From contig JAIQGH010000002.1 in the NCBI GenBank assembly GCA_020072655.1, positions 1-64,000 on the forward strand: 64,000 nucleotides of DNA. Reading direction: 5' to 3'. This document shows positions 3,059-40,742 of this stretch, piece after piece. This DNA is from Terriglobia bacterium. Lineage in GTDB: Bacteria > Acidobacteriota > Terriglobia > UBA7540. How positions within the stretch are numbered: the stretch's first letter is position 1; each line of letters starts with the position of its first letter. A program made the position numbers and the translations under genes. A model generated the notes under the pieces. It did not search any database. It saw nothing but the letters and a program-made list of their open reading frames with translations, and had not been told where the DNA came from.

Positions 3059-5238
3059 TTACTCGTTACTCCCCGGGGATGTCGACGCGTCGACATGGCC
3101 GGGGATGGTAGCGATCTCGGCGAAAAGCGCGATGCCGGAAAACAGCCCATCCAGCTTCCCCAGCAAGCGCAGCCGGTTCTGCCGAACCGCACGGTCCTCG
3201 GCCATCACCAGCACCTTGTCGAAGAACTTGTCCACCGCCGGCCGCAGGCTGGCGATTGTTTCTAGAGCCTTCCGATACTCCCCGGCGCTATTCAATTGGC
3301 CAACCTGATTGGCGGCCCGCTCGTAGGCGTCCGCGAGCTTGCGCTCCGGCCCGGCATCGAGCAACCCTCGATCCACTTCCCCCGGCGCCCAATCGCTGGC
3401 GGTCGCCGACTTGGCGAGAATGTTCTTGATGCGCTTGGCGGCAGCGCACAAGGCCTCAAAATTATCGCTGCCACGCAACTTCTCGAGCGCCTCCGCCCGG
3501 CGGACGGCGTCCAGCGGAATGTCCCAGCCGGCAGCCAACACGGCGCGTACAGTGTCGTACCGCGCCTTCTGCGCCGACTCCAGATAGAACCGCAGGCGCT
3601 CTTCCAGGAAGCTCACAACCGCGCCGAAAACCTCATGCAAGGGCTTCTTCCAGTCAAGGCGCAAGCTGTTGAGCGCCGACTGCACCAACGGCTTGATAGA
3701 GATCTGGATGGAATGTTCAACCAATACTTTAACTATTCCATTCCCCTGGCGGCGAAGGGCAAAGGGGTCACTCGAACCCGTCGGCTCCTGCCCCGCCGCA
3801 AAACCCCCTGCCACGCTGTCCAGTTTGTCGGCGAGCGAGGCCACCGCGCCGACAAGGCTGCGCGGCGAGCGGTCCTCCAGTCCCTCCGGCCTGTAATGAT
3901 CGTAAATCGCCTCCGCAACCTCGCTTGCCTCCCCCTGCGCGGCGGCATAAAGCCCGCCCACGATTCCCTGCAGTTCCGTGAACTCCTGCACCATCTGCGT
4001 GGTCAAGTCACATTTGGCGAGGTCCACGGCGCGCAACGCGTGGCCGGTATCGGCGGGCGTCAGCCTGCCCTGCCCTTCGAGCGCCGCGCAGATCTCGCGG
4101 GCCAGGGCCCGCGTTCGCTCCACCTTGTCCGCGTAACTGCCCAGCTCGGCCTGAAAGGTTACGCGCGCGAGACGCTCGGCGCGCTCCGCAAGGGGCACCT
4201 TTTGGTCGGAGTCCCAGAAGAATTCTGCGTCCGCGAATCGCGCCGCCAGCACGCGCTCGTGCCCCTGGCGGATCAACCCGCGGGTGTCGCGGTCCAGGTT
4301 GAGGAGGGCGACAAAACGGGGTTGGAGCGAGCCGGCGCGATCCTCGACCGCAAAGTACTTCTGATGGTCGCGCATCACGGTAATCAGGATCTCGCGTGGG
4401 AGGCGTAGGAAGCGCTTGTCGAAGCCGCCACAGATGGCAGTCGGCCACTCGGTGGAATTCACGATCCATCGCTCAAGCCAAGGGTCTTCAACAAGCTTCA
4501 GGCCGCCTTCAAGTAAAACATTAGATTTCTGGCGAACCGTGGCCAAGCGGCGCTGGGGATCAAACTCCACGCGCGCTTGGCGCAACTTCCCCTGATATTC
4601 CTTGAAGCTTCGGACGCGCTGAGGCCGCTGGCCATAAGCCCGATGGCCATAAGTCACGTCAGACGACTTGACGCTGGCTAGCGCGAACGGAACCACTCGC
4701 GCCTTGGGACCTTCCCCCAGGACCGCCACGATCCAGCGAATCGGGCGGACGAACCGGGGCCCGGCCTTGGCCACCCAGTACATGCTCTTCGGGAAGCTGA
4801 GGCCGGTCACCACGCTGGGGACGATTTGCGCGAGCAGGTCAATCGCCTGCCGCCCTCGTTGCGTCTTGCGCACAGCCAGGTATTCACCCTTGGGGGTGGT
4901 CACGCGCACGAGTGCCCGGACCGGCACGTTACCCTTGGCCGCAAAGCTCTCCGCGGCGCGCGTGGGATTCCCCGCGTCGTCGAAGGCGACCCTGACTGGC
5001 GGCCCCACGGTTTCTTTCACTTGGTCCGCCTGGCGTTCAAGGACGCTCGGGACCCAAACCGTCAGCCGCCGCGGCGTCGAATACCACTTCCCCGCTCTGC
5101 CCTGCGGGGGAAGCAGGTGAGCCTCTTCCAGAGCCGCAAGAAGGGCCTTACCCAAATCGTCGCGCGCGCCGTCCAGGAAGCGAGCGGGGATCTCCTCGCA
5201 CCCGATTTCCACCAGAAGCGGCAGCGCTTGCGGCTCTT

Positions 5239-5242
<4 letters not shown>
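3059..5242 (-). CDS. glyS: glycine--tRNA ligase beta subunit
   Basis: Beta subunit of the alpha2-beta2 bacterial glycyl-tRNA synthetase, needed for tRNA-Gly recognition and charging. The protein (727 residues) opens with [15 protein letters not shown], the hallmark start of GlyS, and keeps the long tRNA-binding body with an HD-like central segment and a C-terminal helical anticodon-binding region. The start chosen is GTG at 5242: its GTGA overlaps the glyQ stop by 4 bases, whereas the open frame extends 50 residues further upstream into non-homologous sequence. The last residues (about [12 protein letters not shown]) are encoded by a palindrome and a tandem heptad rather than by typical glyS sequence, so the C-terminus appears to have been rewritten by repeat insertion. 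Confidence 0.95.
3071..3104. repeat. 34-base palindrome at the 3' end of glyS (REP-like)
   Basis: The core ATGTCGACGCGTCGACAT (3079-3096) is a perfect 18-base palindrome. It is flanked by CCCCGG on the left and CCGGGG on the right across a 2-base mismatch on each side. It lies inside the last codons of glyS. A near copy of the core (TGTCGACGCGCCGACA) occurs at 6971-6986 upstream of recO. Recurrence plus palindromy suggests a small interspersed REP-like element that can also fold in the glyS mRNA. Confidence 0.8.
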
Positions 5243-6114
<872 letters not shown>

Positions 6115-6129
6115 CACCAAGAACCGTAA

Positions 6130-6215
6130 GTTGTTCGTTGTTGGTGGTTCGTTGACTACGCGGGGGAGACTCCCACCGAATCAACACCACGAACTCCCGA
6201 CTACCCACAACTGAC
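6130..6215. repeat. GTTG/CAAC-rich inverted repeat between recO and glyQ
   Basis: The left arm (about 6129-6156) is a run of GTTGTTCG / GTTGGTGGTTC units. The right arm (about 6181-6215) reads as an imperfect reverse complement (TCAACACCACGAACT...CCACAACTGACA). The two arms could pair across a 25-base GC-rich loop. The architecture (short-unit array, loop, inverted array) matches the two heptad elements in this window, but with different units. Confidence 0.7.
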
Positions 6216-6220
6216 AAATC

Positions 6221-6964
6221 CTAGACTTCATCGAGGAGCGGCCGGGTCACGAGCTTCCTTTCGAGGTGCGCTTCGATTAGCTCCTCGAAGAAGTGCCGCA
6301 CCTCCCGCAGATCCCCCGCCGACTCTTCTTCCCCGGTCCAGTGGCTGAGAGTCGCCTGGCAGCGCTCGACAACGCGCGCCAGCCGTTCACGTGCCGTGAA
6401 GAGCATGGCCTGCGGGGGCCGACAATCTTCGCAAAGAAGCCCCTCGAAACCTGCCGCGTAATATACCGGAGCATCCGCGAGCCCCCGGCCACAGCTCGTG
6501 CAATGCCCAAAATCTGGCAGGAACCCGCCCAGGCGGAGCAGCCAGTAATCGAAATAAACCAGCGGCCGGTTGGTCTCGCCCGACTGCTTCATGGTGCGCA
6601 GGACGGCGAGTACCAGCCGGAAGGCGCGGTCGTTCACCTCGCGCTCGGGCAGGAACCGGTCGGCCACCTCCGCCACGAACTGCGCGGCGACCTGCAGCCG
6701 GTAATCCTTCTGCATGTCGAAGAAGGACTCGAGCAGTTCGGCGGAGTTGATGCGCAGCAGGTCGCGATTCTCTCGCTCAAAAATCCACAGCCGGATATAG
6801 CTCAGCGGCTCCAGCATTCCGCCGTAGCGGCTCTTAGGCCGCTGCGCCCCCGCCGCCACAGCCCTCAGCCGTCCCAATTGCCGCGTAAAAAGCGACGCGA
6901 TCTTGTCAGCTTCTCCGAGGCGGTAGGTCCGCAGGACGAGCGCTTCTGTTTCCCGCAGGGGCAT
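6221..6964 (-). CDS. recO: DNA repair protein RecO
   Basis: Recombination mediator that works with RecF/RecR to load RecA on SSB-coated gaps and anneals strands. The 247-residue product starts MPLRETEALVLRTYRLGEAD, the usual OB-fold beginning of RecO, followed by KIASLFTRQLGRLRAVAAGAQ. The C-terminal helical domain holds a zinc-binding motif CTSCGR ... CEDC. The length is normal. The start is ATG at 6964. It is the first gene of the recO-glyQ-glyS-ppdK run; the 100 bases to glyQ are mostly a repeat hairpin, so co-transcription through it is uncertain. Confidence 0.95.
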   Translation of the reverse strand: MPLRETEALVLRTYRLGEADKIASLFTRQLGRLRAVAAGAQRPKSRYGGMLEPLSYIRLWIFERENRDLLRINSAELLESFFDMQKDYRLQVAAQFVAEVADRFLPEREVNDRAFRLVLAVLRTMKQSGETNRPLVYFDYWLLRLGGFLPDFGHCTSCGRGLADAPVYYAAGFEGLLCEDCRPPQAMLFTARERLARVVERCQATLSHWTGEEESAGDLREVRHFFEELIEAHLERKLVTRPLLDEV

Positions 6965-7435
6965 GCCCGATGTCGACGCGCCGACAAGTCAAAAACGTTA
7001 ACACAATGATGGCAAAGCGTGAAGTGAAAAGTAGCCCGCCATGATGCACGTCCGCAGCCCGGGACTTCACCGAGGAGGAATGCGCAGAGGCGGGGTCTGC
7101 TCCGCCCGGATTCAGTTCATCGGAGCGCTCGAAGAAGAGGCCCTCCACCGGTGTGCGGTTTCCGAACAAACGCTCGCGTCGGTGCCCGCCGACGCTGTTG
7201 GAAAATCGCAGGGTTTTGTGGAAAACAGGTTATGTTAACAAGCGGTCAACCGGTGGAAAATTATCAGACGCGGCTGTGGAAAGCCCAGCCTTCACTCCGC
7301 ATATCCGCGCCGCCGGGTTCGAAGTGTGTCCCGAGCAGCCCTCAGCTCAGGGTTGAGGACGAGAACGACAAACTAGTTGCAGGCTGAAAGGGGGCGAGTT
7401 AAATTGCCTTTCCGCTTGGGCTGAGGAGTCGGACA
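6965..7435. other. 471-base divergent intergenic region with DnaA-box-like motifs
   Basis: No convincing gene was seen between recO and the PfkB kinase. It contains a second copy of the REP-like palindrome core (6971-6986). It also has a short AT-rich stretch with TGTGGAAAA (7217-7225), which matches the reverse complement of the relaxed DnaA-box consensus TTWTNCACA. Two one-mismatch versions follow at 7252-7260 (GGTGGAAAA) and 7275-7283 (TGTGGAAAG). Both flanking genes point away, so promoters for each are expected here; none is clear enough to place. Confidence 0.5.
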
Positions 7436-8446
7436 TTGCCGCACCAACCCGTTGATGTCGTCGGACTCGGACTGAATGCCACAGACACCGTTCTTACGGT
7501 TCGGAAGTTCCCTTCGCTGGGCGGGAAGGAGCGCATTGTTTCGGTCAGCCAACACGCAGGCGGGCAGACGGCGACGGCTGTCGTGACCTGTCGCCGGCTC
7601 GGTCTGCGGGCTCGCTACATTGGCAAGGTCGGCGACGATGAAGGGGGGGAAATCCAGCTCGCCAGCCTCAAGCGGGAGGGGCTGGACACGCGCTATGTGC
7701 GGGTGGCGCGTGGGACGCCCAATCAGATTGGCCACATCATTGTCGACCAGAGCACCGGCGAGCGAACGGTCTTCTGGGGCCGGGACCCCCACCTCGCTTT
7801 GCGCCCCTCGGAGGTTCCACGGGAAGCGATCTGCTCAGCACGGCTCCTCCACATCGACGGCTGCGATGTCGAGGTGGCATTGCAGGCGGCGCGCTGGGCG
7901 CGGGACGCGGGGATCCCCGTAACTGCCGACCTGGACACGCCCTATAAGAAAATCGAGCGGCTCTTCCCTTACATTGATTTCTTGATCGCCTCGGCCAGCT
8001 TTCTCCCCGCCGTGACGGGCCAGGATGATCCCTTCCGGGCCTTGGAATGCATGGCGGTCGAGTACGGTGTGCACGCCCCGGGCATGACCCTGGGCCGCGA
8101 CGGCGCGCTGGTCTATGCGCAGGGGCAGTTCTACTACTCCCCCGGATTCGTGGTTGAGACCGTGGACACCACAGGCGCGGGAGACGTATTCCATGGAGCC
8201 TTCATTCACGGCCTGCTGGCCGGGTGGGAGATGGATCGGATCCTCGACTTCTCAAACGCCATGGCTGGGCTGAATTGCACGGCGCTGGGCGTGCGGGGTG
8301 GCATCGCCACGCGCGCCGAGGCAGAGCGGCTGATGAAAACCGGCAAACGGCACGTCGAGCGCGCCTACGCGACAGCCGCTCGCGCCAGATCGCGCCAGAA
8401 GAGACTAGGGCGGTTCCCTGCCCTGTCGGGAGGCAAGGCCACGTGA
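7436..8446 (+). CDS. PfkB-family carbohydrate kinase
   Basis: Ribokinase-like (PfkB) sugar or nucleoside kinase, cytoplasmic. The 336-residue protein has the N-terminal PfkB strand (VDVVGLGLNATDTV), the substrate-loop glycine motif HAGGQTATAV, and the C-terminal signature VDTTGAGDVFHGAF with the catalytic Asp at residue 250. The start is TTG at 7436, placed by a GAGGAG ribosome-binding site about 8 bases upstream and by the family start. The substrate cannot be read from sequence. It stands alone, divergent from recO, and 299 bases precede the next gene. Other PfkB activities (ribokinase, fructokinase, sulfofructose kinase-like) are possible. Confidence 0.9.
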   Translation: MPHQPVDVVGLGLNATDTVLTVRKFPSLGGKERIVSVSQHAGGQTATAVVTCRRLGLRARYIGKVGDDEGGEIQLASLKREGLDTRYVRVARGTPNQIGHIIVDQSTGERTVFWGRDPHLALRPSEVPREAICSARLLHIDGCDVEVALQAARWARDAGIPVTADLDTPYKKIERLFPYIDFLIASASFLPAVTGQDDPFRALECMAVEYGVHAPGMTLGRDGALVYAQGQFYYSPGFVVETVDTTGAGDVFHGAFIHGLLAGWEMDRILDFSNAMAGLNCTALGVRGGIATRAEAERLMKTGKRHVERAYATAARARSRQKRLGRFPALSGGKAT

Positions 8447-29674: not shown

Positions 29675-29748
29675 TGGGAGGTCGTCTAACGGTAGGACTG
29701 CAGACTCTGGATCTGCGTATCGGGGTTCGAATCCCTGCCTCCCAGCCA
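29675..29748 (+). tRNA. tRNA-Gln (anticodon CUG) with encoded CCA
   Basis: The acceptor stem TGGGAGG pairs with CCTCCCA. The D-arm is GTC...GAC, the anticodon stem GCAGA/TCTGC with loop CTCTGGA gives anticodon CTG, the variable loop is GTAT, and the T-arm is CGGGG/CCCTG with loop TTCGAAT. The U1-A72 pair and G73 discriminator are typical of bacterial tRNA-Gln. The 3' CCA is encoded. Bases 29709-29751 are duplicated at 56171-56213, marking this tRNA as the probable integration site of the 26.5 kb island to its right. Confidence 0.96.
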
Positions 29749-29751
29749 ACA
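29709..29751 (+). repeat. attL-like core: 3' part of the intact tRNA-Gln
   Basis: This 43-base stretch runs from the anticodon loop to just past CCA. It matches 56171-56213 in the same orientation except for one base (T at 29727, G at 56189), which falls at the conserved TpsiC uridine of the T-loop. Confidence 0.75.
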
Positions 29752-29787
29752 TTCATGCGGCTTCCATCACAGACACCCCGCGAAAAA

Positions 29788-29844
29788 GGTAGCATGTAGG
29801 ACCCTGGGTGCTACCGGAAATCCGAAAAGCGACCCCGTGCTACC
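29788..29844. repeat. three copies of the 7-mer TGCTACC next to tRNA-Gln
   Basis: GGTAGCA (29788-29794) and TGCTACC (29809-29815) form a perfect inverted pair, and a third copy TGCTACC lies at 29838-29844. All are within 100 bases of the tRNA 3' end, inside the proposed island. Integrase arm-type sites or a tRNA terminator hairpin are possible readings. The remainder of the 741-base gap 29749-30489 holds no gene I can support; one long minus-strand open frame (29811-30491) has no recognisable protein features. Confidence 0.55.
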
Positions 29845-30412
29845 GCTCTTCCCTGCAAAAGGAGGGCTTCCGTGTTAAATGATTTGCCTTTGCACATCGC
29901 GCCAAAGCTCCAGCGAAAGGTTTGAGGGAAATCATCCGAAGCGACTTTTGTTGTGACCGTGCACGATTTATAAGAGAGATGCAGGATACTTGAGAAAATC
30001 CCTCCGGTTAGGCGCGTGAAGATCTTCCTCGCCTGGAGCAACAAGAGATGAACTCGGATTCCCGGCGCAATTGCAGAGTTCAGTCCCGAGCGATCGAAAT
30101 CGTGTGCGCAATTCCCCACGACTGTTTTTGGAACACCGCTAAGAATCACAGATCTCATCAACTTCCCAACGGGATCCTGCGGGTGGGCGAAAAGGGAATC
30201 TCTTCGGCTCAGTTTCCGAAAAGCCGACTTTTCGTTCCCGATCCATTTTGTGTGCGCCCAGCACCCGCAATGCGCATAGGAGCCCCTGGGGAAAACTTGG
30301 TCTGCTGCCGGGACCACTTTGCGGTCGATCCAGCACGGAGAGGTGTTGCTGCAGACGGCGCTTCTACGAACCCTCTCCCCTCCTTGAACCCCTCCCGTTA
30401 GACCTGCGGTCG

Positions 30413-30441
30413 TTGACTTATCGATATACGGGGCGTACGCT
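30413..30441 (+). promoter_or_regulatory. possible promoter upstream of the kinase remnant
   Basis: TTGACT (30413-30418), a 17-base spacer and TACGCT (30436-30441) precede the kinase start by about 50 bases. The -35 is good; the -10 is only a moderate match. The same -10 hexamer is seen in the putative receptor promoter at 54454-54483. Confidence 0.35.
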
Positions 30442-30489
30442 GGCGTCATTCCAGAGTTCACCTGCATCTTGCTGTGAGGCAATCGCCTC

Positions 30490-30600
30490 ATGATTGGCCA
30501 GACGGTTTCCCATTACCGCATTTTGGAGAAACTCGGGGGCGGTGGCATGGGCGTCGTGTACAAGGCCGAGGATCCCCTCCTCGATCGCCCGCGCGGTCAT
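30490..30600 (+). pseudogene. remnant of a Ser/Thr protein kinase N-terminus
   Basis: The ATG at 30490 begins [19 protein letters not shown], followed by MGVVYKAED. This is the standard start and glycine-rich ATP loop of acidobacterial PknB-type kinases. After about 29 residues the sequence loses all kinase features: the catalytic AxK lysine strand, HRD and DFG motifs are absent, and the frame soon runs into the surE-like gene. It is therefore a 5' fragment left by deletion or insertion, near the left end of the proposed island. No other part of the kinase is visible in the window. Confidence 0.75.
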
Positions 30601-30710
30601 GGCCGAAGTCTCTGGGCTCCTCGATGGCGCGAGGGCCGGCATTGCGGAATATCGCAGGCAAATGATCTGCTGACGCTACCTGCGGTATGTCCACGCTTAG
30701 GGAGGGCACT

Positions 30711-31808: not shown

Positions 31809-32807
31809 TCATCGTGTATGGCTGTCACGCTCGGGTGGCGCGATGAATCGAAGCCGCTTGTCCAACCACTGGGCCTCGTCCTCAAAGCCCTCTTGCCGGT
31901 TGAAGTGCAAAAGGCGTCGGTAGCGCTTGACCACATCAAACCCAATACTCCATTGAAGCTTGCGCAGATCCACTGGGCAGAGGTGCAGCGGTCTGGCATC
32001 AGATTCGGCGAGGTGATTCGACCCGTTCATCAGGCACCGAAACCAGACGCAGTGGTCGATGCCGAACATGTGACCGGTCTCGTGGGCCAGGACTTTGCAG
32101 CTGCGCCGGAGCATCAGCTTGTGGGAGCGCGCCGATAGCGCCTCCCCATAGAATCTCGGATCGTAACGGGCAAAGCTGTACACACCCACGCGATCGCGTG
32201 GCGACGCTTGGCCGAAGACGAAGTTGCAACTTGGGTCGGGATAGAGATCGCTCATCGTTATGCCCAGCAGGGCAAAGGCGTCTTCGGGCACCTGAGTCAC
32301 AAGCAGCTTAAGGATGTCGCTGGTGAGTAATTGAATCTGGCCCGTGTAGGGGTTCCGCCGACTCGTAAGGTGATGCTGGGCCTGGCCGGAGGGCGGCAGG
32401 ACAACAACCTCCATCATGAAGAAGGCGGCCGTGAAGCGGCGCATTTGCTCGAGTGAAGCGCCCTCACCTTCATCAAAACTGCCAAGCGGCTGGAGATAGA
32501 TCTTACTTCGGTGCTTATCCGGCCGGTTGGGCCGGGAGCGGACGAACCGGTCAAAGGTCTGCCCGGCCTCCGGATGGTTCGCCAGCCAGTCACTGGGTCC
32601 GGGCTCGGCCATGGGCTGAAAATCGTCTCGAGGCTCGAGTGCCCGGCGAAGCGCCTCCGGCAGCCCGGCCGTCGGGCCGATGGCAGCAAGACGCTGGGCG
32701 GGGGTCGGAGCCGTATATCGCATGCTCTTTCCCGGTACCAGCAGAATAGTTCCGAGCAGGATCGACATCAATAAGGCGTTCGAAGCTTTTCGCATGAGCC
32801 AAAGCAT
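31809..32807 (-). CDS. archaemetzincin-type zinc metalloprotease, exported
   Basis: 332 residues with an N-terminal hydrophobic signal or anchor (ASNALLMSILLGTILLVPG). The catalytic site is HETGHMFGIDHC, with His242, Glu243, His246 and His252 arranged as in archaemetzincins (HExxHxxGxxHC). It continues C-L-M-N-G-S-N-H-L, then ARPLHLCPVDLRKLQ, strongly like the AMZ family zinc site. Cys253, Cys258 and Cys277 are kept, but the fourth Cys of the structural zinc site is Asp280. The export signal and changed fourth ligand are unusual. Weak Shine-Dalgarno; ATG 32795 is an alternative start. Substrate unknown. Confidence 0.82.
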   Translation of the reverse strand: MLWLMRKASNALLMSILLGTILLVPGKSMRYTAPTPAQRLAAIGPTAGLPEALRRALEPRDDFQPMAEPGPSDWLANHPEAGQTFDRFVRSRPNRPDKHRSKIYLQPLGSFDEGEGASLEQMRRFTAAFFMMEVVVLPPSGQAQHHLTSRRNPYTGQIQLLTSDILKLLVTQVPEDAFALLGITMSDLYPDPSCNFVFGQASPRDRVGVYSFARYDPRFYGEALSARSHKLMLRRSCKVLAHETGHMFGIDHCVWFRCLMNGSNHLAESDARPLHLCPVDLRKLQWSIGFDVVKRYRRLLHFNRQEGFEDEAQWLDKRLRFIAPPERDSHTR

Positions 32808-33180: not shown

Positions 33181-34602
33181 GTGAAGATCACCATCATCTT
33201 CCCCGGAAGAAGCATTGAGACCGCGAGGCCGGCGGGCGCTGTCATGCCGTTGGCTCCGTGCCTCTTGGCGGCCCTGACGCCCAAGGAACACGACGTTTCC
33301 TTGGTTGACATGTTCCTGGGCGACCGGGTGGATTACGAATCGGATGCTGATGTCGTCGCCATCACCGTGCGGACACCCCTGGCAACAGTGGCCTACGAAA
33401 TTGCCGACAATTTTCTCCAGCGTGGCAAGAAGGTCGTCCTGGGAGGGCCGCACATCTTCGCCTTTCCCCAAGAGGCCAAGCGGCACGCCACCGCGGTTGC
33501 CATCGGCGAAGGTGAGGATCTCTGGCCGCGAATCCTCGAGGACATCCAGCGGAACGATCTGAGGCAGTTCTATCTCTGCGGGCCGTTGGCGGCCCAGAAC
33601 TTGCCCGGCACGGTCCACCACGTTAAGCAGCGGCCCACGTTAGAAAAGCTCCCCATCATGAGACGTGACCTGTTGCCTCGCGGGCGCTACATGATGGACT
33701 CTATTTTCACCACACGCGGCTGCCCCAACCATTGCCGGTTCTGCCCGGTCACCGACATCTTCGGAGCCAAGATTCGGCATCGACCGATTGACGACGTGGT
33801 CGCCGAGGTCTCCAGCCTCGGTCCGCGTTACTACAACGTCGATGACAGCGTATTCGGCCATCCGCAGATCGTCGATCGGCCCGAGGAGAATCAATACTAT
33901 GTCGACCTCTACCGCGAACTGGCTGGTTTACGTCCGAAGCGTCTCTGGAGCGGCGCGGGCGGGCTGTCCGCGGTGAACTACAAGGATGGAAGGAGGATCC
34001 TGGAGCTCGCGGCCGAGAGCGGCCTTTGCAGCATCGCCGCGGGCCTGGAATCCATATCCCCGCAGGGACAGAAACAATCCGGCGCCTGGAGGAAGCTGCA
34101 CTATACTTCGCCCGATTGCTTCGACATCCAGAAGATGAAGGAGAATATCCATACAATCCAGAGCCTAGGAATCGAGGTGCGAGGGTTCTTTGTTATTGGG
34201 TGGGACGAGGACACTCGGGAGACATATCGCAGGACCCTGGACTTCTGCGACGAAGGCGGCATCACGCCGTTCATCTTCACCCTGACCCCCATGCCCGGCA
34301 GTCAAATCTATCGAGAGTACCTGGACCAAGGACGGATCCTTTTGGATCGATCTTGGGATTACTACGGTACCGGGCGTATTGTCTACCGGCATCCCAACAT
34401 GTCCGCGGAGGAGATGTTCGACCTGAATGGCGAGGTCATGAGAAATGGTTACAGCATGGGTCGGATTCTCAAGCGGGCGATTCAAGCCTTCAGATATCGT
34501 CCGTCCCTGGATGTTATAGAGGACTCGTTTTTCACTCAGTTGGGAGTGAGGAAAGCCTATCGCCAACTCTACGAACAGATCCCGAGGCCAAGTAGAGCTT
34601 GA
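33181..34602 (+). CDS. B12-binding-domain radical SAM enzyme
   Basis: 473-residue radical SAM protein. An N-terminal B12-binding-like Rossmann domain (about 1-140; PLAPCLLAALTPKEHDVSLVD, VVLGGPHIFAFP) is followed by the 4Fe-4S site RGCPNHCRFC with Cys181, Cys185 and Cys188. An IGWDEDTRETYRRTLDFC segment and a C-terminal extension (about 400-473) follow. The GTG at 33181 is chosen because AGGAGG lies about 7 bases upstream and the Rossmann strand VKITIIFPG begins there. Members of this class do methylations, ring contractions or lipid modifications; the substrate is not evident. It lies in a cluster with two more radical SAM genes and a SufBC-like pair. Confidence 0.88.
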   Translation: MKITIIFPGRSIETARPAGAVMPLAPCLLAALTPKEHDVSLVDMFLGDRVDYESDADVVAITVRTPLATVAYEIADNFLQRGKKVVLGGPHIFAFPQEAKRHATAVAIGEGEDLWPRILEDIQRNDLRQFYLCGPLAAQNLPGTVHHVKQRPTLEKLPIMRRDLLPRGRYMMDSIFTTRGCPNHCRFCPVTDIFGAKIRHRPIDDVVAEVSSLGPRYYNVDDSVFGHPQIVDRPEENQYYVDLYRELAGLRPKRLWSGAGGLSAVNYKDGRRILELAAESGLCSIAAGLESISPQGQKQSGAWRKLHYTSPDCFDIQKMKENIHTIQSLGIEVRGFFVIGWDEDTRETYRRTLDFCDEGGITPFIFTLTPMPGSQIYREYLDQGRILLDRSWDYYGTGRIVYRHPNMSAEEMFDLNGEVMRNGYSMGRILKRAIQAFRYRPSLDVIEDSFFTQLGVRKAYRQLYEQIPRPSRA

Positions 34603-34632
34603 GCGCCGTCGTCGCCAAGCGTGACCCCGGTG

Positions 34633-35112
34633 TCAAGCAGCGTCTGGGCTCGCCTGATCCGGCCCTCGACTTCCCTCTTTCTCGAAATGTAGTTTGACGT
34701 TTCGGAGGGATTTCTCGAGACGTCGAGCCCACCCCGGCCGCATGAGATGAAAGTCCAGCAGGGGACCCAGCACCGGCACGGGGAGGCTGTACTCGAGAAT
34801 GTAGGTGAGTCGCGTCGTGTAACCGACGGCCTCAAAAACCCACTGGGTCCTGTGCGGGGGGCCCTTGGTCGCCACGCCCCTCCAGCCGGCGTTCTCAACG
34901 AAGTCGTGGATCTCCGTCTCGAGATTTAGCGTCAGGCCTGCCACCCAGGCCTTGTAGGCGTATCGTGTACCGTTGCCTCGCGTAACCTGGGTCGTCGGCC
35001 TGAAAGCGGAGACCCCTTCCCACCAGTCCTCCCATTGCCGCCAGTCCGATGCAAATGCGAACACATCCGCGAGCGGCGCATCGATGTCCACGCTTGCTTC
35101 AACCCTCGTCAT
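34633..35112 (-). CDS. SRPBCC (START/polyketide cyclase-like) family protein
   Basis: 159-residue small ligand-binding protein. The start TRVEASVDIDAPLADVFAFASDW is typical of the SRPBCC fold (first strand, then helix containing the D-x-F motif), with a later YILEYSLPVPVLGPLLDF and a C-terminal helix (RRLEKSLRNVKLHFE). It probably binds or processes a hydrophobic small molecule. It is the only minus-strand gene in this stretch, convergent with the radical SAM gene to its left. No catalytic residue can be named. Confidence 0.8.
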   Translation of the reverse strand: MTRVEASVDIDAPLADVFAFASDWRQWEDWWEGVSAFRPTTQVTRGNGTRYAYKAWVAGLTLNLETEIHDFVENAGWRGVATKGPPHRTQWVFEAVGYTTRLTYILEYSLPVPVLGPLLDFHLMRPGWARRLEKSLRNVKLHFEKEGSRGPDQASPDAA

Positions 35113-35233
35113 GGCAGTAACCTCCCCTCGATCGTTCGTGCCGGAGCAGGAGCCTGAGCCTTACATGGGCTCAGCGGATCAATCTTGTCCCGGCCCGGCT
35201 GCGGGTGAATCATAGCTGACACAGGACCATGGT

Positions 35234-36088
35234 GTGAAGAAAGCCCGCACAGCTCGTGAGCTCGAGATCGCAGCAGCGGCGGCCCGGCCGCCGAGGCCCC
35301 AGAAAGCACTCCTGCCCTGCGGGGATGCGATGGCCATGCTGGCTCGCCGGGGATTACGTCCGGGCAAGGCCCGACTCGACGTGCCCTTCCGAGAGAATCT
35401 CGAAGAGGAGACCGCCGAGCGACTTACGGCACTGCTTGGCCATTATCCCTTCCGCCTCTTTCTACGCGGAGCTATCCTGCATCCTGAAGGGTTTGCTCCG
35501 GAGGAGGCGACGCAATACTTGAAGCGAGCTCAGTCAAGGGCTTATGCGGAGTCACTGGTCAACCTTGGTCTCGCCGAACGGACCGCGCGAGGCCGCTACC
35601 GATTGCTCTGTACTGCGAAGAGCTTTGGTGGAACGCTGGAGTGGTACGTGGCACGTGAACTGGGTCGGCGGTTTGCTTTCGACGTGGCGGCAGGGGTCCG
35701 GTTCCACGCTCGGGGCGTAGGCGGCGACCTTGATGTAGTCGCTGCGGCGGAAGGTAAACTGGCCTATCTCGAGTTGAAGTCGTCTCCACCCAAGAACCTT
35801 GAGGTCCGCGAGGTGGTCGCCTTCTTCGACCGGGTGTGCATGCTCCGCCCCGATGTGACTCTCTTTGTCGTGGACACCGCGCTGCGCCTCAGCGACAAAG
35901 TTTTACCCATGCTCGTGGCAGAGCTGGAAAACCGCCGGGGCAGAACCGGGGTCGTCCCGCGCCGCATCGAACGGGAGCTTTGGGCGCTGACAGCCCATCT
36001 CTACGCGGTGAATGGAAAGGTGGATCTCATGGCCAATATCGGCCGGGCCCTGGCGGAAGGTCTATCCGCCCTTTCTCCGGCGCTCTGA
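35234..36088 (+). CDS. uncharacterised protein with a PD-(D/E)XK nuclease-like core
   Basis: 284 residues, no close family recognised. The middle part (about 60-140) looks like a winged-helix segment (ESLVNLGLAERTARGRYRL). It is followed by GGDLDVVAAAEGKLAYLELKSS, which fits the PD-(D/E)XK pattern: Asp165/Asp167 on one strand and Glu180-x-Lys182 on the next. The GTG at 35234 has AGGA 7 bases upstream. It could be a restriction-like or repair nuclease, or a DNA-binding pseudo-enzyme. It ends 28 bases before a radical SAM gene on the same strand, so they are likely co-expressed. Assignment is by motif only. Confidence 0.6.
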   Translation: MKKARTARELEIAAAAARPPRPQKALLPCGDAMAMLARRGLRPGKARLDVPFRENLEEETAERLTALLGHYPFRLFLRGAILHPEGFAPEEATQYLKRAQSRAYAESLVNLGLAERTARGRYRLLCTAKSFGGTLEWYVARELGRRFAFDVAAGVRFHARGVGGDLDVVAAAEGKLAYLELKSSPPKNLEVREVVAFFDRVCMLRPDVTLFVVDTALRLSDKVLPMLVAELENRRGRTGVVPRRIERELWALTAHLYAVNGKVDLMANIGRALAEGLSALSPAL

Positions 36089-36116
36089 CCACGGTGCGTA
36101 TGGAGGACGAAGTTTC

Positions 36117-37211
36117 TTGAACGCGAACTCTGACTTGCGCCCTCCTGATCAAGTGTGCGCAGTTTGCGGGCGTAGGTCGCTTCTGATCAGTGCCACTTTG
36201 GGAGTGTGTCGCGAGTGCATCCGCACTTGTCCCGGCAAGGCGATTAGCATTACCTCGGCACTTCATGGTGAGGCGCGCAAGGCCTTCGACCTGCCTGTAT
36301 CCCCTCCCCGCGCGCCTGAGGGTGTGCGATGCACCTTGTGCGTTCGAGAGTGCATGATCGGGGAAGGTGAACGTGGATATTGCGGTTTGAGGACTGCACG
36401 GCAAGGTCGGCTGGCACATCTTGCGGGTACTCCGCAACGCGGCGTCCTGGAATGGTACCGCGATCCTCTGCCGACCAACTGCGTGGCTGACTGGGTCTGT
36501 GTGGGCAGCCGGCGGGCGGGCTATCACAATCTGGCTGTCTTCTATTCCAGTTGCACACTCGATTGCCTGTTCTGCCAAAACTGGCACTTTCGTGATATTT
36601 CTCCACCGGCCGCCAATGGCACAAGCGCAGCTCAACTTGCCGACGCCGCTAACCCACGGACTTTTTGCGTTTGTTTTTTCGGTGGCGACCCGGCTTCTCA
36701 AATGCTTCACGCTGTCGCAGCAGCCTCGAAGTTGGCCAAGAAAGGTGTTGTCATCTGTTGGGAGACGGCCGGGACGTCGAATCCCAAGTTGCTTGACTGC
36801 GCGGTGGCTCTCTCACTCGAGACGGGCGGCTGCATCAAATTCGACCTCAAGGCTTACGACGAGGCTCTGCATGTTGCCCTGACGGGTGCCTCCAATCAGC
36901 GCACGCTGGAGAATTTCGCGCGCGCAGCGCGGCGGTTTAGCGAGCGTCCAGACCCACCGCTGGTCATCGCCAGTACCCTCCTAGTGCCTGGATACGTGGA
37001 CCCTCCTGAGGTCGCCCTGATCGCCAGATTCATCGCCAGCATCAATCCGAACATCCCCTACGCGCTGCTAGGATTCGGGCCACACTTTTACATGCAGGAC
37101 CTGCCTCGGACCTCGGTTGGCCATGCACAAGCTGCGGAGGAAGCGGCCCGCGCGGCTGGCCTCGCTAACGTCCGCATCGGCAACCGCCACCTGTTGTCGC
37201 GCGACTATTGA
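36117..37211 (+). CDS. radical SAM enzyme, AmmeMemoRadiSam/PflA-like (copy 1)
   Basis: 364-residue radical SAM protein. An N-terminal zinc-ribbon-like region (CAVCG ... CRECIRTC; Cys14, 17, 31, 34) and CTLCVRECMIGEGERGYCGLR precede the radical SAM site SCTLDCLFCQNW (Cys146, Cys150, Cys153). FFGGDPASQ and CIKFDLKAYDEALH follow, typical of the pyruvate-formate-lyase-activase-like group. The start is set at TTG 36117, behind GGAGGA, because the longer frame overlaps the previous gene. A paralog lies 227 bases downstream. The AmmeMemoRadiSam family usually occurs with AMMECR1 and MEMO proteins, but neither is seen here. The reaction is unknown. Confidence 0.82.
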   Translation: MNANSDLRPPDQVCAVCGRRSLLISATLGVCRECIRTCPGKAISITSALHGEARKAFDLPVSPPRAPEGVRCTLCVRECMIGEGERGYCGLRTARQGRLAHLAGTPQRGVLEWYRDPLPTNCVADWVCVGSRRAGYHNLAVFYSSCTLDCLFCQNWHFRDISPPAANGTSAAQLADAANPRTFCVCFFGGDPASQMLHAVAAASKLAKKGVVICWETAGTSNPKLLDCAVALSLETGGCIKFDLKAYDEALHVALTGASNQRTLENFARAARRFSERPDPPLVIASTLLVPGYVDPPEVALIARFIASINPNIPYALLGFGPHFYMQDLPRTSVGHAQAAEEAARAAGLANVRIGNRHLLSRDY

Positions 37212-37438
37212 GGGAGTCGGACTCCTGGATGAAGAAACGCCCGGTGAATCGGACCACGAACGGGGAGATGGAGCACCGGGCACAGGGCCAGCGCGAGACG
37301 TCCGTTAGCGGACGACGCACCGCTGAACCCATGGCACGATGACTTGGTGGCGCAGCGCTTCAAGCAGAGCCTCTCGCTTTACCGCGAACTCGCCAAGGGC
37401 TTCCACGTGCCCTGTGCGCTTGCTGGGAAGGTATACTC

Positions 37439-38569
37439 GTGCAAGAAAACCAGATTGAGAGGGCTAAGGCCTTGTCAGAGCCGGGTGCAGCACGCTCTTG
37501 GTCAGGAGAAGTCGAGAGCATTTTCGTGCGTGAGGCGCTCCTGCAAGAGGTAACGGGCGGCAAAGTCCGCTGCCATGCCTGCGAGCGCCGGTGCACGCTC
37601 ATTCCGGGCGGTTTGGGTTGGTGCCGAACGCGTCAGAACCGCGATGGAAAATTAGTCACCCTGATTTACGGTTCGGTCTCCTCGCTCGCGGTGAATCCGA
37701 TTGAGAAAAAGCCTTTCTACCACTTTCATCCGGGTACCAAGGCGCTCACCGCAGGCAGTTGGTCATGCAACTTCGGTTGCCCGTGGTGCCAGAATTGGGA
37801 CATCAGCAAGTCGCCCCCGCCCGCAAAAGGCGATTATGTTTCTCCGCAGCGCTTCGTTGACTTGGTGGAGAAGAGCGGTTGCCAGGGAACATCCATTTCC
37901 TTCAATGAACCTACGCTGTCTCTGGAGTGGTCGGCGGATGTATTTCGCCTGGCCAAGCAGCACGGGTTCTACAACACCTTTGTCACCAACGGCTATATGA
38001 CGCCCGCGGCGCTCGCCCTGGCGATTGAATCGGGCCTGGAGGCGATGAACGTCGATCTCAAAGGTGATGGCGCGTCCGTGAAGAAGTTCTGCAAGATGGT
38101 CGACGTCGAGAAGGTCTGGGCTGCCTCGAAGCTTGCACGCTCGCGCGGCGTGCATCTCGAAATCACCACGCTGGTGATTCCCACCGTGAACGATTCCGAC
38201 TCAGTCCTCCACGAAATCGCAGCGCGGATTGCAGGAGATTTGGGCTGCGAGGTGCCCTGGCACGTTACCAGCTACTCTCCCGCGTACCGGTTCACTGCGC
38301 TGCCGACCCCGATTCGAACCTTGGAGCGCGCCTGGCAAATGGGCAAGGAGGCAGGACTGGAATTCGTTTACATGGGTAACGAGCCTAGCCATCGGCATAA
38401 CAATACGTATTGCCCGGTGTGCGGCACGTTGCTGATTCGCCGATGGGGCTTCGATGTAGTGGAGTACAGGCTGGACGCCGGGAAGTGTCCTCAATGTCGG
38501 CGGCCGGTCGCCGGTGTGTGGGGAGAGCGCAGAGGACGAATCGCTCAGGGAACCTCACATGGTGCATAA
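37439..38569 (+). CDS. AmmeMemoRadiSam-system radical SAM enzyme (copy 2)
   Basis: 376 residues. The N-terminal cysteine region CHACERRCTLIPGGLGWCRTR is followed by YGSVSSLAVNPIEKKPFYHF, a family hallmark, the radical SAM site SCNFGCPWCQNW (Cys110, Cys114, Cys117), and the segments FNEPTLSLEW and AMNVDLKGDG. It ends with a zinc-ribbon-like CPVCG ... CPQCRR tail. The start is GTG at 37439 with GGGAAGG about 7 bases upstream. Paralogous to the gene at 36117 but better matched to the family. Probably an activase or modifying enzyme of unknown target. Confidence 0.88.
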   Translation: MQENQIERAKALSEPGAARSWSGEVESIFVREALLQEVTGGKVRCHACERRCTLIPGGLGWCRTRQNRDGKLVTLIYGSVSSLAVNPIEKKPFYHFHPGTKALTAGSWSCNFGCPWCQNWDISKSPPPAKGDYVSPQRFVDLVEKSGCQGTSISFNEPTLSLEWSADVFRLAKQHGFYNTFVTNGYMTPAALALAIESGLEAMNVDLKGDGASVKKFCKMVDVEKVWAASKLARSRGVHLEITTLVIPTVNDSDSVLHEIAARIAGDLGCEVPWHVTSYSPAYRFTALPTPIRTLERAWQMGKEAGLEFVYMGNEPSHRHNNTYCPVCGTLLIRRWGFDVVEYRLDAGKCPQCRRPVAGVWGERRGRIAQGTSHGA

Positions 38570-38620
38570 GGCCTAACAAGGACAGGTCAAAGGGCAGTCG
38601 CGCCGAAGCAGGATTATGAC

Positions 38621-38986
38621 CTAGCAAGTCAAGTGTAAAGCCGCCGCCACTTTCCTGACGCCTTTCAACTGGTTGTATTTCTCGCACGCCTGTCGGGTCG
38701 GCTCGGCGCACAGTTCAATCCCCGCGTCCTTGAGAAACTCCCTCGTTTCTGTCGGAACTTCCATGCGGCCATAGTAGCCCGTCCCCACCACAAGCACCTC
38801 AGGCTTCACGTTCACTACGTCATCCAGGTCCGTTCTGTCCAGTCGGTGGCCTTCCTTGCGCCACCAGCCTCCATCTACCCGACCACCACCACGGGAACTC
38901 TCTGGATAGATCATTACGTCGCTGTGATACTCCTTTCCATCAATGCGCAACACCCCAAAGTCATAGCTCTCGATTATCACCGCCAT
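38621..38986 (-). CDS. Mth938-like domain protein (DUF498 fold)
   Basis: 121-residue single-domain protein. It starts IIESYDFGVLRIDGKEYHSDV and has the central VVNVKPEVLVVGTGYYGRM segment, then a tail in which TRQACEKYNQLKGVRKVAAAL matches the Mth938-like (NDUFAF3/AAMDC-type) fold. Homologs in archaea and bacteria have no firm function. The two eukaryotic relatives act in complex I assembly and adipogenesis, which does not transfer directly. Transcribed toward the radical SAM genes, 72 bases after the SmsB-like gene, so likely in one unit with smsC-smsB. Confidence 0.85.
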   Translation of the reverse strand: MAVIIESYDFGVLRIDGKEYHSDVMIYPESSRGGGRVDGGWWRKEGHRLDRTDLDDVVNVKPEVLVVGTGYYGRMEVPTETREFLKDAGIELCAEPTRQACEKYNQLKGVRKVAAALHLTC

Positions 38987-39058
38987 CCCCCCTCCATCCG
39001 GGTCTGACGAATGGTCATGATGCTCGGGAGCCCGGAAGTGCTGTAGGGCTCAGCTTCA

Positions 39059-40009
39059 CTAGCCGAGCATTCCTTTCACCACGACATCCACGGCCTTCTC
39101 TTCCGTCAGTCCGCGAGCCATGAGCGTCTCGACCTGCTTCTTGTCCACGCTTCCAATGGCGGCCTCGTGCGTCAATTTAGCCCGCTCGTCAATTACCAGA
39201 AGCCTGGGGACAGCACTGGCCCGGGCATCCTTGCCGCGAATAATTTCGACACAATCCACGTGTCCTCGAGAGTTCGGTGCGTTGCCAACCGCCTCTCCAA
39301 TGACTTCGCTCGTGCAATGGTCGGAGGCAACGATACGGCTCCTGGCCAACCCTCGTGCGTTCTCGCCGCTCAAGATGATGGATTCCTTGACCACGATCTT
39401 ATCCTGCTTCTTTCCGTAAATTTTGGCGTTCAGTTCGCCAACCGCGTCCTTTTTCAGGTCGGCAAAGTAATCCAGATGGACTTCGCCGGCAGCACCTTTT
39501 ATCAGTTTGAATTCATTCTTGAAAATACCACCTTCCTCCACCACAACCTTGGCCACCGGAAGGACCTCAACTCCGCCGACTTCGCCGTGATAATGCGTCT
39601 CCGAGTAAGTCATCTCCGCATCTTTGCCCACGTGAATCTTGGCATCCATTACGTGCTTCACCTTGACAGCGTTGGGGAAGAAGCAATGGGCGACGAACTT
39701 CACCTTTGCTCGCTCGCCGATTTCAAAGTCGGAGACGATTTCCTGGAGTCCCTCTTGAGGGATGACGCCGAAACACAGATGCACAGGGTCCTTTACAATG
39801 GCGCCTGCCTCGACACTGATTTTCGCCCTGGCGCCGGTCGACGTCTCTGCACCTTCGATATGTACCCCCGGAGCATTGTTTCTGAAGAGGATTCGGTTGT
39901 GACTGACAACCAGCCCCGCGAAATTCTTATTGCAGAGCGCAGCAGGGTCGCCCCCGGCCGATTCATACGCTTCCGTGATGACAACAAGCTCTTTTGAGGA
40001 ATCAAGCAT
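39059..40009 (-). CDS. short SufB/SufD-type Fe-S scaffold subunit (SmsB-like)
   Basis: 316-residue SufB-family protein, much shorter than proteobacterial SufB and close in size to the stand-alone archaeal type. It has the parallel beta-helix core (VHIEGAETSTGARAKISVEAG, KVVVEEGGIFKNEF) and the C-terminal THEAAIG followed by a segment equivalent to the conserved end of SufB (LMARGLTEEKAVDVVVKGML). The His-Glu pair next to the cluster site is present. By eye, the position of the key SufB cysteine appears not to be Cys. It overlaps the smsC-like gene by 8 bases. Together they would make a minimal SufBC (SMS-type) Fe-S assembly machine. Confidence 0.85.
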   Translation of the reverse strand: MLDSSKELVVITEAYESAGGDPAALCNKNFAGLVVSHNRILFRNNAPGVHIEGAETSTGARAKISVEAGAIVKDPVHLCFGVIPQEGLQEIVSDFEIGERAKVKFVAHCFFPNAVKVKHVMDAKIHVGKDAEMTYSETHYHGEVGGVEVLPVAKVVVEEGGIFKNEFKLIKGAAGEVHLDYFADLKKDAVGELNAKIYGKKQDKIVVKESIILSGENARGLARSRIVASDHCTSEVIGEAVGNAPNSRGHVDCVEIIRGKDARASAVPRLLVIDERAKLTHEAAIGSVDKKQVETLMARGLTEEKAVDVVVKGMLG

Positions 40010-40742
40010 TATTGAGTTCCTTCCCGATCGGCTCGTTTACATGGAGACACTCTTGGCAGTAGTCGCGGAAAAAGCGCGTGATCATCAAGGGATTACCGGT
40101 TTTCAGGATGGTGCCGCCACACAGCGCCGATGCCCGGTCGGCGATAGCGGCGACCTCTCCATGATGCGTAATCAGCAGCACGGCCGCCCCCCGGCGGGAG
40201 AGTGTGCGGATGACGTCGACGATATTGTCGATCGACGGGGGATCGATGCCAGAATCAGGTTCATCGAGAATGGCAAGCCTCGGACTCATGCCCAGCACTG
40301 CGGCGAGTTCGATTCGTCGCCGCTCGCCGCCGCTTAACGTGGTATCCACCGCGCGGTTCAGATACATCTGGGGACGGAGCCCGACTTTTCCCAAGCATTC
40401 CTGCGGGGTCAGCGGACTGCTCCGCGCGACCTGACGTCCGGTCTCAAGGTATTCGGCCACGGTCAACCCTTCAAACCGTGCCGGCTCTTGCCAGGCAAGC
40501 GTTATACCTCGTTGTGCTCGTTCGGAAATGGAAAGCGCGGTGATATCTTCTTCACAAAAGAAGACTCTCCCGGCAGTCGGCGCATATCCATTCAAGCCCA
40601 TGATGACGGAGGCCAGGGTCGACTTTCCGGTTCCGTTCATCCCGATAATGCTGTGGACTTCGCTTTCGCCTAGCTCCAGGTCCACGTCATGCAGGATCTT
40701 CCTGCTGCCCAAAACGAGTTCGATGTCGGTTAATTGCAGCAT
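40002..40742 (-). CDS. SufC-type Fe-S assembly ATPase (SmsC-like)
   Basis: 246-residue ABC ATPase of the SufC group. It has Walker A in GMNGTGKST, the SufC-typical LAWQEPARFEGLTVAEYL, the ABC signature LSGGERRRIELA, Walker B RLAILDEPDSGID, and an H-loop LITHHG. It powers Fe-S cluster assembly with the adjacent SufB-like subunit (8-base overlap, coupled translation). No SufS, SufE, SufU or SufA gene follows, which is characteristic of minimal two-gene systems. It may supply clusters for the three radical SAM enzymes nearby; that is inference. Confidence 0.9.
   Translation of the reverse strand: MLQLTDIELVLGSRKILHDVDLELGESEVHSIIGMNGTGKSTLASVIMGLNGYAPTAGRVFFCEEDITALSISERAQRGITLAWQEPARFEGLTVAEYLETGRQVARSSPLTPQECLGKVGLRPQMYLNRAVDTTLSGGERRRIELAAVLGMSPRLAILDEPDSGIDPPSIDNIVDVIRTLSRRGAAVLLITHHGEVAAIADRASALCGGTILKTGNPLMITRFFRDYCQECLHVNEPIGKELNNA

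Follow-up and report, generated by a model that had tools for sequence, protein, structure and literature searches.

What brought three radical S-adenosylmethionine (SAM) enzymes and a two-gene iron-sulfur cluster assembly system together within 7.6 kb of acidobacterial DNA? The question is raised by a stretch of 64,000 nucleotides from Terriglobia bacterium (positions 1 to 64,000 of contig JAIQGH010000002.1, assembly GCA_020072655.1), here called the window, which is contig 121 of a draft genome of 4.36 Mb in 209 contigs. The genes in question encode a B12-type radical SAM enzyme (B12-rSAM), two PflA/AmmeMemo-like radical SAM enzymes (rSAM2 and rSAM3), a putative PD-(D/E)XK nuclease-like protein, an SRPBCC protein, an Mth938/DUF498 protein and the SmsB and SmsC proteins of a SUF-like minimal system (SMS). 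A preliminary description of this DNA had proposed that they form a self-sufficient modification pathway, with a private SufBC-type assembly unit, that moved as a whole. Our analysis points instead, with a probability of about 60%, to a mosaic in which two units, each acquired independently, converge tail to tail.

First, checks of open reading frames (ORFs) and protein families recovered all eight genes within 7.6 kb, at the coordinates and on the strands given in Table 1, and confirmed that smsC and smsB overlap by 8 bases. The genome contains 40 Radical_SAM matches, so that about 0.07 would be expected per 7.6 kb; the three observed here are a clear local excess over chance. However, B12-rSAM, the PD-(D/E)XK gene, rSAM2 and rSAM3 on the plus strand converge with SmsC, SmsB and Mth938 on the minus strand, and the locus must thus comprise at least two transcription units rather than one operon. 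Whole-genome searches for relatives of these genes covered Acidobacteriota, namely 60 relatives of this organism and 395 further genomes drawn from across the phylum, all fragmented drafts; beyond these genomes, a plasmid collection and a narrow pattern scan of GTDB (for the PD-(D/E)XK alignment) were used.

Second, the SmsC-SmsB pair is, by every feature that could be tested, a true member of the SMS family, whose reference is SmsC2B2 of M. jannaschii, formed by MJ0034 and its SmsC (PMC12192291, PMC12442378, PMC12584684). SmsB was homologous to MJ0034 over its full length (phmmer), and the C-terminus of SmsC carried a C-x20-C-x2-C motif with the same spacing as C218, C239 and C242, the cluster-holding SmsC residues of M. 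jannaschii (PMC12192291). These ligand cysteines were present in the window protein and in all five other aligned SmsC sequences, whereas the housekeeping SufC lacked them. The membership follows from these cysteines, the short type of SmsB and the lack of SufD, a desulfurase and a carrier among the ORFs of the block, and the window thus shares with the archaeal system a two-gene unit without SufD, SufS or carrier as well as the type of SmsB and the ligand spacing of SmsC. It differs in that the window copy is bacterial, is followed by an Mth938 gene, has its nearest kin in Acidobacteriota rather than archaea, and lies in a genome that also has a full SUF system. This system, a complete operon on contig 21 that was recognised by reading its ORFs, consists of SufB, SufC, SufD, SufS, a SufT-like protein and an Rrf2 regulator; SmsCB is therefore redundant with the housekeeping SUF and is not the only supplier of the cell.

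The distribution of the short SmsB suggested a history of its own. None of the 60 relatives had it, not even G017 from a sister genus of the family, and it was detected in 21 of the 395 other genomes. Its nearest kin were in three genomes of another family (f37; 63-69% identity), the identity to the protein of G338 being 69%, and in the SmsB tree the window protein fell inside the f37 group with a support of 95/100, the archaeal protein lying outside. None of the radical SAM genes of the window was found around SmsCB in families f37, f17, f64, f51 and f58 within the flanks read. Taken together, the nearest kin, the tree position and the absence of the radical SAM genes from these neighbourhoods suggest that SmsCB was most likely captured separately from within the phylum, that is, from another acidobacterial lineage. 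The archaeal affinity that had been considered for these genes was not borne out either, since the nearest kin of SmsB, rSAM2 and rSAM3 found in our searches within Acidobacteriota were other Acidobacteriota.

Third, the pairing of the two PflA-like enzymes is genuine and conserved, and their tree positions are congruent. Orthologues of rSAM2 were found in G390, G066, G093, G105, G117 and G008, and all five genomes outside the family that have rSAM2 also have rSAM3 next to or near it: the two genes are adjacent in G390, G066, G093 and G105, and one ORF separates them in G117. In a tree of 50 relatives, rSAM2 and rSAM3 each formed a clade of its own; both clades contained G390, G117, G066, G093 and G105 (G177 being additionally present in that of rSAM3), and both paired the window with G390 at 100/100. 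The rSAM3 protein was 84% identical to its counterpart in G017 and 57% to that of G390. Because the pair groups with G390 while SmsB groups with f37, and no short SmsB was found in G390, the view that the set moved as one unit does not hold for the whole.

Further genes of the plus strand appeared to belong with rSAM3 rather than with SmsCB. In G017, B12-rSAM, the PD-(D/E)XK gene and rSAM3 stand together with 84-89% identity to the window, and neither SRPBCC nor rSAM2 lies between them. More than two of the genes are thus kept together elsewhere, contrary to the refuting condition named in the preliminary description, under which no other genome would keep more than two. This block, along with the pair in five genomes from other families, supports a grouping beyond chance. 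SRPBCC stands alone on the opposite strand; G017 lacks it at the corresponding place, and it does not belong to the conserved block. B12-rSAM, with a B12-binding match (29.9 bits) just below the Pfam cut-off of 32.1, had no characterised equivalog and only two relatives, in G017 (85%) and G009 (90%), with none at E<=1e-60 in the 395 other genomes. The gene after the B12 enzyme in G009 encodes another radical SAM protein, of a PflX-like type, and in G029 the PD-(D/E)XK gene is followed by a broken copy of this PflX-like gene, which in turn adjoins Mth938 in G066, G093 and G081. These pairwise links among B12-rSAM, PD-(D/E)XK, PflX-like, Mth938 and archaemetzincin genes form a connected web from which SmsCB is excluded.

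Archaemetzincin enters this web through a gene that was overlooked in the first reading. It adjoins B12-rSAM in the window, and the run rSAM3-rSAM2-archaemetzincin-DUF72 was found in G066, G093 and G105; neither archaemetzincin nor DUF72 stood beside any of the other rSAM3-like loci examined, most of which had short flanks only. In G117, archaemetzincin overlaps Mth938 by 4 bp. The most interesting feature of the region, the conserved rSAM3-rSAM2 pair with archaemetzincin, lies partly outside the 7.6 kb first described.

Table 1. Features of the radical SAM-Sms region and its archaemetzincin neighbour (positions in the window)
Feature	Coordinates	Strand	Evidence
Long-form archaemetzincin-like zinc protease of peptidase family M54, N-terminal extension	31809..32807	-	PF07998 47.9 bits, cut-off 24.4
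B12-type radical SAM enzyme (B12-rSAM)	33181..34602	+	Radical_SAM 41 bits; RGCPNHCRFC motif
SRPBCC (Polyketide_cyc2) protein	34633..35112	-	family match
Putative PD-(D/E)XK nuclease-like protein	35234..36088	+	motif GGDLDV...LELKSS; no Pfam family
rSAM2, PflA/AmmeMemo-like radical SAM enzyme	36117..37211	+	TIGR04337 71 bits, cut-off 220
rSAM3, AmmeMemoRadiSam-type radical SAM enzyme	37439..38569	+	TIGR04337 266 bits, cut-off 220
Mth938/DUF498 protein	38621..38986	-	PF04430 84.8 bits, cut-off 33
SmsB scaffold subunit, 316 aa	39059..40009	-	PDB 9h78 (MJ0034) E 1.4e-68
SmsC ATPase and cluster-binding subunit	40002..40742	-	TIGR01978 152 bits, under 213 cut-off

The Mth938 gene touches both units. 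It is the first gene after SmsB (gap of 72 bp), and its protein, with about 50% identity to those of other lineages of the phylum but 34% to the genome's native copy, which lies on contig 6, is of a foreign, non-native type. Across the phylum sample this type co-occurred with SmsB (16 of 21 genomes with SmsB versus 18 of 374 without; counted by family, 7 of 8 versus 8 of an estimated total of about 84-92), although the two were apart on the chromosome wherever their positions were read. A shared anaerobic life-style may lie behind this co-occurrence.

Radical SAM enzymes bind a [4Fe-4S] cluster through a CX3CX2C motif and generate a 5'-deoxyadenosyl radical from SAM. Whereas the gene content, the SMS membership of SmsCB, the conserved pairing and the separate histories are results of this analysis, radical chemistry for the enzymes of the window and cluster assembly for SmsCB are suggested by knowledge of these families. 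In the two-unit reading, the first unit would be a protein-modification module composed of rSAM3, rSAM2, the archaemetzincin-like protease, B12-rSAM and the PD-(D/E)XK-like protein, in which rSAM2 and rSAM3 would each cleave SAM by means of their cluster and abstract a hydrogen from some residue in a polypeptide. A substrate of this kind is suggested by the PflA-like fold and by the repeated occurrence of a protease nearby. The presence of archaemetzincin and DUF72 in the same apparent operon in relatives suggests that a protein or peptide is likely modified by a radical, with proteolysis as a subsequent or proof-reading step; the polypeptide substrate and the partnership with the protease are nevertheless a guess. 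The second unit, SmsC-SmsB, possibly with Mth938, would be a complete SMS in which SmsC2B2 builds a [4Fe-4S] cluster on the C-terminal cysteines of SmsC, its sulfur possibly coming from sulfide (PMC12192291). The radical enzymes could draw on this unit as any others could, and we saw no sign of dedication to them. Going one step further, we tentatively propose that rSAM3, rSAM2, archaemetzincin and DUF72, with Mth938 as a looser partner, might constitute an undescribed conserved protein-modification system in which archaemetzincin cleaves the modified polypeptide.

Comparison with known systems showed both likenesses and differences. With regard to AmmeMemoRadiSam (TIGR04335/TIGR04336/TIGR04337), rSAM3 exceeded the TIGR04337 cut-off and rSAM2 was a distant relative, whereas the locus has neither AMMECR1 nor MEMO and its pair forms two separate clades linked to archaemetzincin. 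The two partners had been described as missing, which holds for the locus but not for the genome: contig 84 (L105 8510-12086) carries a MEMO-AMMECR1 fusion beside its own radical SAM enzyme (376 bits) and a DUF362 gene. This is the canonical AmmeMemoRadiSam system of the genome, and it accounts for the local absence of both partners. As for the archaemetzincin, the window copy shares the motif HExxHxxGx3Cx4CxM (as HETGHMFGIDHCx4CLM) with the AMZ-tk family of peptidase M54 (PMC4681839), whereas the full M54 motif is HExxHxxGx3Cx4CxMx17CxxC and the last Cys, in the second zinc site, is replaced here. That study mentions no genomic link to radical SAM genes, and our literature search found nothing on the function of AmmeMemo or on a link between radical SAM enzymes and archaemetzincins.

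Several observations weigh against the two-unit reading and its modification module. Adjacency to archaemetzincin amounts to two independent families only, because G093 and G105 belong to one genus, and the window archaemetzincin is divergent, with about 32-36% identity to the operon-linked ones and without the last zinc Cys. The block order of both the window and G017 departs from the tandem elsewhere, rSAM2 coming before rSAM3 here, and in G008 the neighbour of rSAM2 is a canonical AmmeMemo cluster instead of an rSAM3 orthologue. G017 yielded no rSAM2 orthologue, and its contig stops inside rSAM3, leaving the following genes out of view. Finally, no substrate gene, either for a small precursor peptide or for a glycyl radical enzyme, was identified.

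Among the alternatives, the one that survives best is plain coincidence, in which a tolerant insertion spot gathered unrelated foreign genes and the radical SAM enzymes and the protease do not act together. The mosaic origins, the lone SRPBCC gene, the low codon adaptation and the scattered occurrence of each gene within the family would all fit. However, chance would not lead one to expect rSAM3 paired with rSAM2 in five genomes from other families, with trees that are congruent, or the three-gene block of G017, and we regard this explanation as unlikely. Still less probable is the self-sufficient pathway itself, in which the three radical SAM enzymes would have SmsCB as their dedicated cluster supplier and all genes would have moved together. 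The units are physically adjacent, all three enzymes need [4Fe-4S] clusters, GC3 is lower and codon bias weaker across the whole rSAM-Sms stretch than in most of the window, and Mth938 makes contact with either side. On the other hand, the join of SmsCB to the radical SAM genes is known from one assembled contig, the units lie on opposite strands, and SmsCB is missing from all 60 relatives and has other neighbours elsewhere; of the five genomes with the radical SAM pair only G066 has SmsB, on a different contig. Together with the different nearest kin of SmsB and of the pair and the complete SUF operon, this leaves the earlier interpretation partly supported: the cluster is conserved in parts, and a private assembly unit is not supported.

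That the pair are glycyl-radical-enzyme activases, each putting a glycyl radical into an unlinked enzyme encoded elsewhere, is very doubtful: PFL/NrdG-type activases are their closest described functions and the PFL-activating enzyme (3c8f) their closest solved structure, with the same fold and CX3CX2C motif, but all activase models scored far under their cut-offs (at best 53 bits against 430), the window enzymes have extra Cys knuckles, and neither the block nor the immediate surroundings of any orthologue pair read held a recognisable glycyl radical enzyme. To our knowledge, there is no proven activase in the AmmeMemo branch.

Some properties of the individual proteins deserve mention. The start of rSAM2 is a TTG at 36117 preceded by ggagga, with an ATG at 36012 as a possible alternative; its N-terminus bears a four-Cys knuckle, several further Cys are invariant, and its predicted model, of moderate confidence, was closest to 3c8f (E 4.5e-8). 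In rSAM3, a knuckle (CxxC..CxxC) is C-terminal. Selenocysteine was considered for rSAM3 relatives with an internal TGA and rejected, since the one TGA seen lies at the extreme C-terminal end and looks like an ordinary stop. The PD-(D/E)XK assignment is putative and based on the motif, which is kept in three homologues; the fold model was too poor to use (predicted local distance difference test, pLDDT, 41.5), and matches to DUF4143 and the Csx1 nuclease were weak. Homologues occurred in G017 (89%) and G029 (80%) and in none of the 58 other relatives, so that the family was found in this bacterial family only; the GTDB scan returned the two known homologues only, and as it used two N-terminal patterns, a wider absence is not proven. 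The plasmid collection contained neither a PD-(D/E)XK homologue nor an rSAM2 orthologue.

Other observations concern the surroundings and relatives of these genes. A second dense cluster in the same genome, on contig 193 (17186-27036), holds five Radical_SAM matches inside 10 kb. The broken PflX-like gene of G029 (L103 7366-8112) has lost the segment bearing CX3CX2C, and intact copies are present in G009, G066, G093 and G081. A nitroreductase, 64% identical between the two genomes, adjoins both rSAM2 of G008 and the PflX-like/B12 radical SAM pair of G009 (L039 3466-4230, L140 5635-6318). In the window, positions 29749-30686, after a tRNA-Gln, are somewhat lower in GC and hold only low-scoring ORFs, a possible insertion scar in which no repeat was found; insertion of an island at this tRNA-Gln (29675-29748) was unsupported, its end having no direct repeat near the block. 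A role in anti-phage defence was also rejected, as PADLOC gave weak partial matches to the radical SAM and PD-(D/E)XK proteins and generic ATPase matches to SmsC.

Some SmsCB relatives are flanked instead by ferredoxin, thioredoxin-like proteins and permeases, as on plasmid pSCD of Sulfuricella denitrificans (L205), where SmsCB (5228-6876) is annotated as 'SufD family' and is surrounded by thioredoxin, CcdA, TauE, FmdE and RND/CDF efflux genes. The neighbours in L106 and L110 resemble those of this plasmid, which suggests that bacterial SmsCB often resides in thiol or metal islands. In these two loci, from two distant families, a small Cys-containing protein (L106 12193-12642, L110 5324-5686) adjoins a two-cluster ferredoxin and SmsCB; a scan of the L106 copy matched no Pfam family. 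In addition, contig 54 of G443 (7370-8014; L093/L114) carries an SmsB homologue with in-frame stops, an apparent pseudogene.

AmmeMemo-type radical SAM enzymes are widespread, as are archaemetzincins, and we found no established role for either in the literature; were a radical SAM pair and archaemetzincin linked in a conserved operon, they could be put to the test jointly. The coexistence of a full SUF and a captured, complete SmsCB in one bacterium also offers a natural test of whether the ancestral two-protein system functions alongside the modern SUF. If the proposed modification system is real, archaemetzincins would gain their first pathway.

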